Assembly: GCA_944324135.1 (NCBI GenBank)
Contig: CALUVE010000021.1
Span: 1-36,996, forward strand
DNA length: 36,996 nucleotides
Direction of reading: 5' to 3'
Source: Candidatus Gastranaerophilales bacterium
Lineage (GTDB): Bacteria > Cyanobacteriota > Vampirovibrionia > Gastranaerophilales > Gastranaerophilaceae
Below the pieces are notes generated by a model that was not told the origin of the DNA, searched no databases, and was given only the letters and a program-made list of their open reading frames with translations. The position numbers and the translations under genes were made by a program. Position 1 is the stretch's first letter, and the number at the start of each line of letters is the position of its first letter. Shown here piece after piece: positions 1,561-35,651 of this stretch.

Positions 1561-4473
1561 CTAATCTTGCTCCGCGTCTGCGATGTCCGGCAGAATTTTT
1601 CTGTCGAATCCGAGTTTGTCGGTGTATTCATAGATTGGTCCTTTTTTACCTTTTTGAGCCCAGCTGAAGTCGATTTCAAGGTCATTTTGTACCATTTTCT
1701 TGTAATCTTCCGGTCTTTCATAGTACATCTTGAGAGCTTCAACAAGCTTGTTGTAGAAAGATTCTTCGCTGACGTAAGGTGCAAGGAAGCCGGTTTTGCC
1801 GTCTACAATAGTATCGTGGAATCCGCCGACATCTGTTGTGATGACCGGTGTACCTTTAGCAAAGCATTCACCCTGAGTCAATCCGCAAGGTTCGTAAGTT
1901 GACGGTGCACAGAAGAATGTGCTTGCTGCCATAATTGCAGGGTTAGGCATGTTTCCTTTCAGAGCAAGAACATGGTTCAATCGTTCTTTATTCTTGCCGT
2001 AAGCACCATTTTTCAGGTCATACAGGTGCTGTAATTCTTCAGCAGCTTCCGGCGGCCCGCCCACGATAAAGAACGGCATTTTCTTGCCAGGGAATAATTC
2101 TTCCCAGTTGTCGAACAATCTGAAGATTGCACCTTTCATTATTGACAAACCTTTCTGGTCTGTTAATCTGTGTGCAAATGAGATTACAGGCGCATCGACA
2201 AAGTCTTGTTCAGAGATGTTAACATTATTGCCCACAACTTCAGGTTTATCAATTTTGCCGGCCATAATAGGTTTGATAAAGGCGTTATAGAATCGTCCTT
2301 TATTTTCAGTTCTTAATTCCATAACTTTGTCTATACCTGTATTCTGGTCGTATTCTGCGAGTGCAAGCTTGTCTACAAAGTTTTTGTTTGCTATTGCGTG
2401 CATATCAACTTTGTTTTTGTCCAGCCCGTTGATGATACCTGAAATTGTACCGGTCTCCTGACGTCTCTGGAGTAACGGATACAGGATACCTGATTTCATC
2501 GGGTCATTTATAACTTCTTTAGTATAATTCTTAGATACAGGGACAAACCAATCTGAGAGTGCTACGCCGTTGAATAGGTGGTTAAAGTGTTTGTCTCCTG
2601 TTCTGCGTTTCATCAGGATAGTGTTGCACATATCATCATTTTCACCGGAAATTCCGCTGTGTGCGTGTTCTGTGATTGCGATTGCGTAGCTGTCGTAGAG
2701 TGTGTTAATAATATTTTCTGTAACTCTGTTTTTGCTCAGCAATGAACCAGAACCGTCATTTGATTTACCCTGACAGCTGAGGTTGTGACCAATCATCAGA
2801 AGAGGCATATCTTTCAGAGCTTCAAATGTATTTTTAGAAATTTCATTGTAGTTATATTCCATTGGAGCACGGTATCTTAACAGACCTGCCATAGAACCTG
2901 CGTGCCAATCGTTGAGTACCATTGAATTTGGAGCTTTGATTTTGTCAAAGGCTTCTTTGTCACAGATTTTGAGGTTGGAGATACCTGTTTTCGGGTTTTT
3001 ATCCTCAGGGTCTGTTAATGCCATGTTGACTTTTAATTTAGCCAGTTTATATACAGATTTTGTAAACAGTGCAAATCTTTCGGTCTCTTCAGCGTTTGTT
3101 GTTGAATCGTAGATATTATCATTGAAGTAGTCCTGAGATTTTACAAATACAAGAGTTTTCTTTTTATTGCTGTTTGGAACACTTTCTTCAGTTACGTAGT
3201 ATTCAATTTTTTCAGGTTTAGTTTGTCCGTTTCTGAATACGTGTGTTGTTGTTTCAGCGGCTTTTTTCAGTGTGAAAGTTTTACCGTTATAGGTGTATTG
3301 ATATTCATTGAGAGGAAGTTCTAAGAATTCCGATTTATTTTTCTGCAAATACATCGGAATAAATGTAGGCATATCTATACCGAGCATAGAGAAGTTATCC
3401 TGTAGATCAACCGGAACAACGCCTAAACCGCCGGTTTTAATCGGCGCATATTCAGCTGTGAGTGACCAGGTTGAAGTTAATTGCGGGAATTTTTCTTTAT
3501 ATGCTTTTATGTCGCGTACAGTTTGTTCAGCTGTTCTATCCAGACGGGAGATAGCTGCGTTGTGGATACTGTTGAGGGTTTCTTCAGTTTTTCTGTTGTC
3601 GATTTTTTTCGCATAGTTTAATACTTGCAAGAGGTTCAGATCAAAGTGTCTTACTGTGTACAACTGCATCAGCGGGTCAAGACCGAGTTCTGTGGCTTTA
3701 ACAGCATCTGTAGCGTGCTGGTTAGCTTCGTTAATTCTCTGGTCAAAACTGTTTACGGTATTTCGTGCGTCGTAGGCAGCATTTTTAGCTTCGTAAGCAA
3801 CGGCTTTTGCTTCGCTGGCTGCGCCTGCTACGCCGTTTGCAGTGTTGATTGCATTTTCGGATTTATTTAATATGTCGCCTGCCTGTTTTGCCGCATCGGT
3901 GATATCTTCTTCCTTAAATCCGTTTTCTTTTAGTTTTTCTTTATTGTTTTTTACGAATTCATTTATGCCGAGAGCTGAACCGATACCTATGAACATACTT
4001 GTCAGGAATGTAGATGCCGGAAAAGCATTTGTCCCGCCGGAGGCATTTCCTGATGCGTTCGGTTTTGGAAGTTCTATTTTAGAGAGAGCTTCTTCTATTT
4101 TCTTTTCAATATTAAGATTTTTTATATCATCAACAGCCTGCTGCATTGCTTTAGCTGCTTTGCTGCTTGATTTTTTTGCTTGAGTGTAGACTACAGGCAG
4201 ACCTATTATTGATACTGCAAGGGCCGTAATACCGCTGTATTTTTCGGCAAATTTACCAAACGATGATTTTTGTGCACTATTTAATGTCGTTTGATTAAAT
4301 GTGTCCGCTGCCGGCTGAGGTTGTAATTGAGGGGCAGGCTGCGGCTGAGGTTGTTGTACAGGCGGTTGTTGGACAATCGGAGCTGTTACGGGTTGTTGTG
4401 CTGCTTGTTGTTGCATTTTTTGGAACGCGGAAGAACTTAATAGATTTGTTGAAGTATTGATTGGATTGCTCAT
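1561..4473 (-). CDS. Glycogen/starch synthase-like GT5 enzyme with membrane/coiled-coil N-terminal extension
   Basis: About 970 residues, roughly twice a normal GlgA. The catalytic part begins near residue 335. It has the ADP-glucose-binding KTGGL motif (about 346-350), LNDWHAG, IGHNLSCQG, GIINGLD, an RLTDQKGL block, and the C-terminal E-x7-E motif EPCGLTQGE (about 861-869) followed by TDVGGFHDTI. These are hallmarks of GT5 synthases that extend alpha-1,4-glucan from a sugar nucleotide. The first ~330 residues are unusual: a Pro/Gln-rich stretch (about 20-57), two hydrophobic segments (about 81-96 and 151-170) and an Ala-rich predicted coiled coil (about 190-260). The catalytic part also has extra insertions relative to ~480-residue GlgA. 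I chose the ATG at 4473 rather than one ten codons upstream because AAGGG sits at the right spacing. Substrate and membrane location are inferred. Confidence 0.8.
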   Translation of the reverse strand: MSNPINTSTNLLSSSAFQKMQQQAAQQPVTAPIVQQPPVQQPQPQPAPQLQPQPAADTFNQTTLNSAQKSSFGKFAEKYSGITALAVSIIGLPVVYTQAKKSSSKAAKAMQQAVDDIKNLNIEKKIEEALSKIELPKPNASGNASGGTNAFPASTFLTSMFIGIGSALGINEFVKNNKEKLKENGFKEEDITDAAKQAGDILNKSENAINTANGVAGAASEAKAVAYEAKNAAYDARNTVNSFDQRINEANQHATDAVKATELGLDPLMQLYTVRHFDLNLLQVLNYAKKIDNRKTEETLNSIHNAAISRLDRTAEQTVRDIKAYKEKFPQLTSTWSLTAEYAPIKTGGLGVVPVDLQDNFSMLGIDMPTFIPMYLQKNKSEFLELPLNEYQYTYNGKTFTLKKAAETTTHVFRNGQTKPEKIEYYVTEESVPNSNKKKTLVFVKSQDYFNDNIYDSTTNAEETERFALFTKSVYKLAKLKVNMALTDPEDKNPKTGISNLKICDKEAFDKIKAPNSMVLNDWHAGSMAGLLRYRAPMEYNYNEISKNTFEALKDMPLLMIGHNLSCQGKSNDGSGSLLSKNRVTENIINTLYDSYAIAITEHAHSGISGENDDMCNTILMKRRTGDKHFNHLFNGVALSDWFVPVSKNYTKEVINDPMKSGILYPLLQRRQETGTISGIINGLDKNKVDMHAIANKNFVDKLALAEYDQNTGIDKVMELRTENKGRFYNAFIKPIMAGKIDKPEVVGNNVNISEQDFVDAPVISFAHRLTDQKGLSIMKGAIFRLFDNWEELFPGKKMPFFIVGGPPEAAEELQHLYDLKNGAYGKNKERLNHVLALKGNMPNPAIMAASTFFCAPSTYEPCGLTQGECFAKGTPVITTDVGGFHDTIVDGKTGFLAPYVSEESFYNKLVEALKMYYERPEDYKKMVQNDLEIDFSWAQKGKKGPIYEYTDKLGFDRKILPDIADAEQD

Positions 4474-4512
4474 ACGTTTACCCTTATTCTTATATGTACA
4501 CACGCTTTTATA

Positions 4513-34139: not shown

Positions 34140-34168
34140 TTGCATTTTTGTTTCTTTGTTGTTATGAT
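34140..34168 (+). promoter_or_regulatory. Promoter of the leader-peptide transcript
   Basis: TTGCAT (34140-34145), 17-nt spacer, TATGAT (34163-34168), with TGT just before it (extended -10). The predicted start is near 34175, about 25 nt before the leader-peptide ATG. Confidence 0.6.
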
Positions 34169-34199
34169 TATAGTAACAAGTATTTTAAAAGGATAAAAA

Positions 34200-34259
34200 A
34201 TGATTTTAAGAACTGCAAAATTCCATCATCAACATCATAGCTTCCTGAAGAGGCTATAG
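34200..34259 (+). CDS. Histidine-rich leader peptide (19 residues)
   Basis: Reads MILRTAKFHHQHHSFLKRL and stops at TAG. Four of five consecutive codons (34224-34238) are CAT for His. AAAGGA lies 6-7 nt before the ATG, so translation is likely. The size, the run of one amino acid and the position just ahead of competing hairpins match amino-acid-operon leader peptides such as HisL. Too short for ordinary gene calling. Confidence 0.65.
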   Translation: MILRTAKFHHQHHSFLKRL

Positions 34260-34341
34260 AATTGATGATGCGCAGTTTTAATAAATAATTCAATTCTTCA
34301 TATAAATAGCCTCTTCGGGATAAATGCGTAAGAGGCTATTT
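34211..34341 (+). promoter_or_regulatory. Transcription attenuator, histidine-type
   Basis: Three competing structures are readable. (1) Leader codons pair downstream: AACTGC (34211-34216) with GCAGTT (34272-34277), and CATCATCAA (34224-34232) with TTGATGATG (34262-34270). (2) Antiterminator: GAAGAGGCTAT (34247-34257) with ATAGCCTCTTC (34306-34316), continued by AGAATTGA (34258-34265) with TCAATTCT (34290-34297). (3) Terminator: 34304-34315 with 34330-34341. A ribosome stalled at the His codons leaves 34247-34265 free and favours (2). A ribosome reaching the stop codon covers that arm and favours (3). This is the logic of his/trp attenuators. Confidence 0.65.
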
Positions 34342-34346
34342 TATTT
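34304..34346 (+). terminator. Attenuator terminator hairpin
   Basis: A 12-bp perfect stem (34304-34315 with 34330-34341), a 14-nt loop and a T-rich tail (TTTTATTT). Its left arm is the same segment used by the antiterminator. Confidence 0.7.
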
Positions 34347-34370
34347 GTTGAATTGGAGGTTTTAAATATA

Positions 34371-35651
34371 ATGTCACTAGTTAATATAATTTCGGCTGTA
34401 GGAAATAATAATTCTGTTTACCCTCTTCTTTTCCGTGATTGCGGGGTAGAAAATCCTATTAAGATTGCACTTACATATAAGCAAAATATTGATGAATCAC
34501 CTAAAGTCGCCAGATATGCAGTTAGAGAACGTTCTATTGATGAATATACTACATCAGCGGTTTGGCTTGGTACTGTACCTGCAGTTGAATATGTCTCTGA
34601 TAAATTCATCGCTAAAAAAGGTTTCAGTCCGCTTATCAGCGCACGTCTTTTTAAGGAAGATTTGGATAAGAATCCGTTCCAAGGGATAGAATTTAACATT
34701 AAAAAATTCGGCAATTCCGCTTCTAAAGAGGTGCAAGCCGCAGTTGCAGACCTTGTGAAAGCTAAAGAAAACAAAAAAGCTTTTGAAAGTTTGATGTCTA
34801 AAAAGTTTGTGGCTGCTGTTACTATCCCGATGGCTTTAATAGGTTTTATCATTCCTAAATGTATATTTGCTCTCTCCAGCAAAATTAACAAAAGAGAAAA
34901 AGCTAAACAACAGCCTGCATATTCTGATATCTTCCCTAAATCCGATATTGCCACATTTGGCCAGAAAAAAGATGTTGCATTCACCGGTTTTGCGTCAACC
35001 GTTGCTAACCTTACAACTCCTGATAAAATGGCTGCAATAGACGGCGGCTATGCTATCGGGCGTATCTTGACAGCACGCCCCGGTTATGAGCCCGTTGATA
35101 TTGCTTTCAAAATGGCAGGTATGCTCTATTTGAATTATGTTGCCCCTAAGCAACTGGAAAAATTGTTTGACTTTACGTCCGGTAAACTTTTCAAAAGTAA
35201 TGTTAATTTAGACCCGAAACTTCTTAATAACAAAGAATTTGTCAGTGAAGTTAAAAATAATAAATTCGAATTTTTGAAAGATATGGACGGCCGTAAAATG
35301 CTTGAATATATTGACAACAATCCGAACAGTTCGTTTACAAAGTTTGCATCAATGTTCAAAAAAGTCACAATGCTCACCTCAGACAGCAGAGACCCGAGAG
35401 TTTTTGTTGATATCAAGGATTTGGAAGCATTTGGAAAAAATATTTATTCCTTTGCCAAAGACGGGCTCGCTTCTAAAAATTTGAACAAGTTTGCGAAAAA
35501 AGCTCTCTGCGTCAAGTCATTTAATATTATATCAAATGTGGCACTGAGCAGCTTTTTACTTTCTTATGTTCTTCCGAAAACGCAATTCGCTCTCAGAGAG
35601 CTTTTCACAGGCTCCAAACTTGAACCAGGTCTTGCTAATATTGATAAGTAA
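34371..35651 (+). CDS. Unknown protein, probable membrane-associated, under attenuator
   Basis: A 426-residue protein that I do not recognise. The ATG at 34371 is chosen over a TTG at 34353 because GGAGG (34355-34359) lies 11 nt before it. Two clear hydrophobic segments are visible (about residues 147-166 and 385-402), plus a weaker one near 248-257. Each is followed by a similar motif: IIPKCIFAL, VAPKQLEKLF and VLPKTQFAL. Between them are Lys/Asn/Asp-rich stretches. No signal peptide, catalytic motif or His enrichment is seen. It follows the histidine-type leader and attenuator directly and ends at a strong terminator, so it is a single-gene transcript. Nothing links it by sequence to histidine metabolism. 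Confidence 0.75.
   Translation: MSLVNIISAVGNNNSVYPLLFRDCGVENPIKIALTYKQNIDESPKVARYAVRERSIDEYTTSAVWLGTVPAVEYVSDKFIAKKGFSPLISARLFKEDLDKNPFQGIEFNIKKFGNSASKEVQAAVADLVKAKENKKAFESLMSKKFVAAVTIPMALIGFIIPKCIFALSSKINKREKAKQQPAYSDIFPKSDIATFGQKKDVAFTGFASTVANLTTPDKMAAIDGGYAIGRILTARPGYEPVDIAFKMAGMLYLNYVAPKQLEKLFDFTSGKLFKSNVNLDPKLLNNKEFVSEVKNNKFEFLKDMDGRKMLEYIDNNPNSSFTKFASMFKKVTMLTSDSRDPRVFVDIKDLEAFGKNIYSFAKDGLASKNLNKFAKKALCVKSFNIISNVALSSFLLSYVLPKTQFALRELFTGSKLEPGLANIDK

Follow-up and report, generated by a model that had tools for sequence, protein, structure and literature searches.

A histidine attenuator has been described in Enterobacteria (PMC3896937, PMC9413887). In the his operon of Escherichia coli and Salmonella (hisL; Rfam His_leader), a short ORF with clustered His codons is combined with alternative 1:2, 2:3, and 3:4 pairings, and ribosome stalling averts the terminator. 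The histidine attenuators predicted in Firmicutes (Bacillus cereus group, Peptostreptococcaceae, Erysipelotrichales) have leader peptides with three to five His codons, a terminator, and an antiterminator (PMC9413887). In some amino-acid attenuators (PMC9413887), among them those of Actinobacteria, and in the sequestor T-boxes of that phylum (PMC1262725), one of the alternative hairpins sequesters the ribosome binding site, either in place of termination or in addition to it. The Actinobacteria study found no conserved RNA structure 5' of histidine operons (PMC1262725). Finally, auxotrophic Gram-positives control histidine transporters by T-box or HisR, i.e., they have histidine-responsive genes that are not biosynthetic (PMC9413887).

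We analysed a window (the whole stretch of DNA under study) of 36,996 nucleotides from Candidatus Gastranaerophilales bacterium (contig CALUVE010000021.1), part of a 1.82-Mb genome that is 99.9% complete. It contains a putative attenuator that shares the His-rich leader, the alternative pairings, and the terminator of the systems above. However, hisL controls biosynthesis, whereas the gene found here encodes a His-free protein of an uncharacterised family in a host where neither hisD nor IGPD was detected, and most Gastranaerophilales relatives add a Shine-Dalgarno pairing. The Firmicutes attenuators also precede his biosynthesis operons, so that both phylum and target differ. In contrast to the systems sequestering the ribosome binding site, both outputs occur here within one family, with a balance that varies by genus. 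T-box and repressor systems work without a leader peptide, and their targets are known transporters (hisXYZ, yuiF). No Rfam family matched the window leader at the gathering score, and His_leader was not among the permissive matches (E up to 10); the T-box covariance model, the only T-box search made, gave no match at either threshold. A search confined to open-access journal articles returned no report of such an attenuator for Gastranaerophilales. The novelty lies in the phylum, the target, the two outputs in one family, the link to the loss of biosynthesis, and the His-free product.

The leader and its alternative folds

The features of the locus, all on the forward (+) strand, are the following:

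34140..34168, +, candidate sigma-70 promoter: TTGCAT, 17-nt spacer, extended -10 TG-T-TATGAT at 34160-34168
34187..34195, +, leader ribosome binding site region (AAAAGGATA), assigned from its sequence; a GGA-type motif is likewise placed in many orthologs
34200..34259, +, His leader ORF MILRTAKFHHQHHSFLKRL followed by a stop: ATG at 34200, TAG at 34257-34259, 19 codons
34211..34230, +, strand 1 (AACTGC and CATCATC), overlapping the first His codons; pairs with 34264-34277
34243..34265, +, strand 2, antiterminator 5' arm, holding the final codons of the leader together with its stop codon; pairs with 34290-34320
34264..34277, +, strand 1' (GATGATGCGCAGTT), partner of strand 1
34270..34274, +, GCGCA, which may form a weakly supported pseudoknot with the terminator loop (TGCGT, 34325-34329)
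34289..34320, +, strand 3: antiterminator 3' arm, terminator 5' arm (34304-34315), and 5' arm of the Shine-Dalgarno pairing (34289-34296)
34304..34348, +, intrinsic terminator with a stem of 12 bp (34304-34315/34330-34341), a loop of 14 nt, and a U-rich tail
34350..34360, +, GAATTGGAGG(T), the Shine-Dalgarno of the gene and the stretch pairing with TTCAATTC (34289-34296)
34371..35651, +, controlled gene, encoding a membrane-type, mostly helical protein of 426 residues with 0 His

The original prediction, made from the letters of the window, had named an extended -10 promoter, a leader of 19 codons containing HHQHH, three nested pairings in which the terminator shares an arm with the antiterminator, and a stop codon placed such that the ribosome could switch the fold. 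These elements were recovered. The promoter is plausible from its TG-T-TATGAT element, and similar TTGC..TATxAT stretches lie 5' of the orthologs L004, L005, and L057, though its -35 is weak and a consensus scan requiring 9 of 12 positions does not list it. The leader ORF, with AAAAGGATAAAAA standing 5' of it, carries HHQHH at codons 9-13 (His codons at 34224-34229 and 34233-34238). The other three HHxHH matches in the DNA of this genome were rejected as leaders, being antisense to frames of 385-491 residues; so was MIQNSLKLHHFHHKNSR in another genome (G003, L257), a candidate second leader antisense to an lptC-like frame.

The leader/downstream pairing joins 34211-34216 to 34272-34277 and CATCATC to GATGATG, and the antiterminator arms span 34243-34268 and 34295-34320. 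The terminator stem is 100% complementary (-16.8 kcal/mol) and is followed by a U-run. The region is more stable than dinucleotide shuffles, with minimum free energy z-scores of -5.07 for 34176-34352 and -3.79 for 34240-34352. We then folded only the RNA left uncovered by a ribosome footprint. When the A-site is placed on the first His codon, the prediction shows the antiterminator (-31.9 kcal/mol) and no terminator; when it is placed on the stop codon, the terminator is predicted to form (-18.1 kcal/mol). Ribosome position thus decides the predicted fold, as expected from a stop codon lying within the antiterminator arm. Without a ribosome, the 1:2 hairpin and the terminator are predicted together (-47.7 kcal/mol). 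The terminator can already form in these models when the ribosome is at the last His codon (34236), and effective stalling must therefore take place at earlier codons.

Conservation and output of the predicted switch

Using a cut-off of E≤1e-60, we found orthologs of the controlled gene in 215 of the 383 genomes (largely MAGs) of the window's family, spread over 22 of its 41 genera. We collected the upstream regions of about 137 orthologs, giving 135 distinct leader regions, all of which contain an ORF of 14-30 residues with 3-7 His. These ORFs nearly always start with ATG (examples are MDTLITSKLHLHHHINLKRL, MFTPSVKRHHHNHHHCH, MTWKITLKLHHHYHHRYPEGL, MKTGNQNRLHHHHHLG, and MKKTIEIVKIHHDHSLSR), and the ATG of the gene itself (34371) is also kept in orthologs. 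Among 80 representatives sharing less than 80% identity, all have at least three His in the leader, against 4.9% of the dinucleotide-shuffled upstream regions analysed with the same ORF-picking rule. Gene neighbourhoods vary between genera, with no neighbour related to histidine, yet the leader and the gene remain paired, i.e., they were held together through rearrangement.

We assessed covariation as the percentage of paired positions between the arms of the same sequence, compared with 500 swaps of arms between the 80 representatives. Own arms were better paired than any swap in the main 2:3 helix (83.8% versus at most 76.5%, 13 of its 15 pairs showing double changes), the upper 2:3 helix (84.3% versus 83.3%), the inner 3:4 helix (86.5% versus 79.2%), and the outer 3:4 helix, which involves the Shine-Dalgarno (86.1% versus 84.0%). 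The pseudoknot 34270-34274/34325-34329 gave 63.3% versus at most 62.3%, which is too weak to rely on even with double changes at 5 of 5 pairs. The column-wise test showed no difference between own and swapped arms for the 1:2 helix, where it is uninformative because an alignment is lacking. An alignment-free comparison of duplex energies showed own arms at -13.1 kcal/mol and swapped arms at -9.4 kcal/mol (sd 0.28); once the His codons were removed, these values became -7.6 and -5.5 kcal/mol. Comparison of related loci had been proposed as a check on the prediction, and it bore it out: leader His codons are conserved while the neighbouring residues change, and both hairpins covary.

The prediction had considered only the terminator as output. 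The terminator stands, with its 12-bp stem and U-rich tail, but a second pairing had been overlooked: in the window, TTCAATTC (34289-34296) pairs with GAATTGGA (34350-34357), which overlaps the Shine-Dalgarno region of the gene. This pairing with strand 3 is found in most relatives and recurs with other letters: CAAUUCUAAAU/AUUUAGAAUUG, CUUUUUUCGUU/AGCGAAAAGAG, CUCCUUUA/UAAAGGAG, and UUUCAAUUUCACAU/AUGUGAGAUUGGAG. A hairpin with a U-run occupies the place of the terminator in 50 of the 80 representatives, including the window and its genus. It is absent from about 30 (e.g., many of the genera g10, g11, and g25), most of which retain a Shine-Dalgarno pairing with covarying arms. Among the relatives, the predicted accessibility of the Shine-Dalgarno, obtained from a noisy model with a crude motif picker, was 0.39 for a ribosome stalled on the first His codon and 0.30 for one standing at the stop, whereas shuffles gave 0.41 and 0.42. 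The difference has a Wilcoxon p of 1.7e-7, computed on sequences that are not independent and ignoring phylogeny. In the window species the modelled values are the same (0.39 stalled, 0.40 finished), making the terminator the likelier output there. In summary, the presence of the Shine-Dalgarno pairing in most relatives and the absence of the terminator in some genera suggest that the modelled switch is transcriptional, translational, or both, with a balance that varies between genera. One attenuator family can thus be seen shifting between the two types of output.

Predicted histidine auxotrophy and the controlled protein

The searches that failed to find hisD and IGPD (hisB) in the window's genome gave matches in 13 of 14 control genomes and, among sampled relatives outside the family, in 23 of 23 (hisD) and 21 of 23 (IGPD). 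The host is therefore predicted to be a histidine auxotroph. In the 383 genomes of the family, the gene and hisD co-occur only six times, whereas 209 genomes have the gene only, 95 hisD only, and 73 neither. This corresponds to a Fisher p of 1.7e-35 that is uncorrected for relatedness and thus overstates independence. However, exclusion is also seen within genera: the seven g57 genomes with the gene all lack a hisD match while hisD is present in many of the others of this genus, and it recurs in g22 (one overlap) and g6 (three overlaps). The 73 genomes with neither show that auxotrophy does not depend on the gene. In two of the six genomes with both, hisD scores far above the rest of the family (601 and 535 bits; G190:C10:29542-30756 and G324:C9:33655-34875), and these copies were perhaps acquired from elsewhere or are binning contaminants.

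The prediction had described the downstream gene as encoding an unrecognised membrane-type protein, and this holds: searches of Pfam, NCBIfam, and PDB sequences gave no match, and hence no transporter family. The protein has about two clear hydrophobic segments, a strong one at 150-168 and another near 379-408. Its structure model (pLDDT 76.7) has a best Foldseek E of 0.21 and a best Z of 7.2 (over 101 residues), values that do not exceed the background of helical models; matches to phage-ejection, mechanosensitive-channel, and ABC-transporter folds were rejected as helix matches at that level. The protein is nearly devoid of His. Among 42 distinct orthologs, 36 have none, four have one, and two have two, a share of 0.044% compared with 1.16% for the paralogs and 1.69% for the remaining genes of the window (Mann-Whitney 4e-12). 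No other residue is comparably depleted: Cys comes next (0.39-fold), and Asn, Tyr, and Asp are not depleted. Since it is almost free of His, the protein can be made in histidine starvation. The enzymes of amino-acid biosynthesis reportedly contain little of the amino acid that they produce, which has been explained by the need for these proteins in starvation (PMC4209129). We read the His-free protein as following this logic, with the differences that it is not biosynthetic, that it occurs in predicted auxotrophs, and that His is nearly absent from it.

The leader, the covarying alternative helices, the fold switch, the co-occurrence with loss of his biosynthesis, and the depletion of His, all established computationally, point to a locus that is very probably a ribosome-mediated histidine attenuator controlling this gene. 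When charged tRNA-His is ample, the ribosome would reach the leader stop codon at 34257 and cover strand 2, strands 3 and 4 would pair, and the terminator would halt transcription near 34346; in transcripts that read through, the Shine-Dalgarno region would tend to be paired by TTCAATTC. Under a shortage of charged tRNA-His, it would instead pause at the first His codons and leave strand 2 free to pair with strand 3, and the gene would be transcribed and translated, giving an almost His-free membrane-type protein that could be made during starvation. If the leader is left untranslated, the 1:2 hairpin would form and the terminator would hold the gene off. In this scheme, the transcription start, the stalling, the termination, and the induction by starvation are all inferred from the sequence and the models. 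Control of a non-biosynthetic gene by histidyl-tRNA had been part of the prediction, and the near-exclusion with hisD and the near absence of His in the product support it. The family of the controlled protein thereby acquires a signal that can be tested (charged tRNA-His), a physiological setting (histidine auxotrophy of gut bacteria related to Cyanobacteria), and a signature (no His).

Could the His codons and hairpins be products of chance? AT-rich regions easily give rise to CAT-rich frames and U-runs, and 4.9% of the shuffles do reach three His, but conservation and covariation over about 22 genera refute this explanation, to which we give practically no credit. A different signal is conceivable, such as a metal bound by the His-rich peptide or mRNA, or queuosine in the tRNAs reading CAU, AAU, UAU, and GAU. 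Leaders use CAT 334 times and CAC 20 times, whereas window genes use CAC 126 times and CAT 60 times, and Asn and Tyr are common between the leader His codons. Models of attenuation indicate that the choice of synonymous regulatory codon affects sensitivity (PMC1183508); the preference for CAT could also result from the CATCAT/ATGATG pairing, because CAT pairs with the ATG of strand 1'. Furthermore, Asn and Tyr codons are one mutation away from His codons, the product is depleted in His but not in Asn, Tyr, or Asp, and the gene nearly excludes hisD, which makes a signal other than histidine very improbable. A purely translational attenuator, in which strands 3 and 4 only hide the Shine-Dalgarno and the apparent terminator is incidental, would account for the representatives that lack the hairpin with U-run and mostly retain the Shine-Dalgarno pairing. 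It is nevertheless unlikely given that 50 of 80 have a strong hairpin with a U-run, among them the window and its genus, and that accessibility is unchanged in the model for the window.

The role of the protein is less clear than its regulation. That it helps an auxotroph to obtain histidine or His-containing peptides is the likeliest role and, in our judgement, about an even call. The fuller proposal of a new, His-free family for histidine acquisition, controlled by an attenuator with termination and Shine-Dalgarno outputs, that replaced histidine biosynthesis several times in gut Gastranaerophilales, is tentative and falls slightly short of even. The regulation could also be as proposed and the protein have a general starvation or envelope function without any part in histidine acquisition, which we regard as a serious contender if somewhat under even: no transporter fold or family was matched, the protein has few clear hydrophobic segments, his-prototrophic relatives have paralogs, and the 73 genomes mentioned above do without both hisD and the gene. 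On the other hand, the near-exclusion with hisD, also within genera, is what a role in acquisition predicts. If such a role is true, the association of an attenuator with amino-acid depletion provides a route to nutrient-scavenging genes among uncharacterised proteins.

Paralogs and other loci

The window's genome encodes two paralogs of the controlled protein. In the phylogenetic tree, the orthologs with His leaders form one clade (99/99), separate from the paralogs, which have a different leader. In these paralogs (L209/L002 at G000:C34:12888-14279, L021, L022, L024, L026-L030, L207, and L210-L214), a conserved leader ORF ending mostly in LMNLxWGL and a stop lies 4-55 nt 5' of the gene (MLKNIRRNSIIKANAPIVKLMNLIWGL in the window's own genome). 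Trp control by this leader finds no backing in the Trp content of the paralogs, which are not depleted (0.66% versus 0.55%); an arrest peptide or a coupling ORF may fit better than a Trp attenuator.

A distant homolog that groups with these paralogs (L023:1495-2877, in G034:C93) has an HHHH leader (MNTLFTQAERHHHHN) and a single His in 461 residues. This is a possible independent origin of the arrangement of a His leader with a His-poor protein, in a sequence on a long branch and from a 63% complete genome; a homolog search with this protein returned only the protein itself. In two other genomes (L254 and L251; G001:C43 and G002:C18), a 212-residue protein beginning with MKIASINTYQTKPHF has a C-terminal HHHHHRHW, perhaps a metal-binding tail. 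Finally, positions 1561-4503 of the window encode a starch/glycogen-synthase-like protein (Glyco_transf_5 and Glycos_transf_1) whose N-terminal extension is long, Pro/Gln-rich, and helical.
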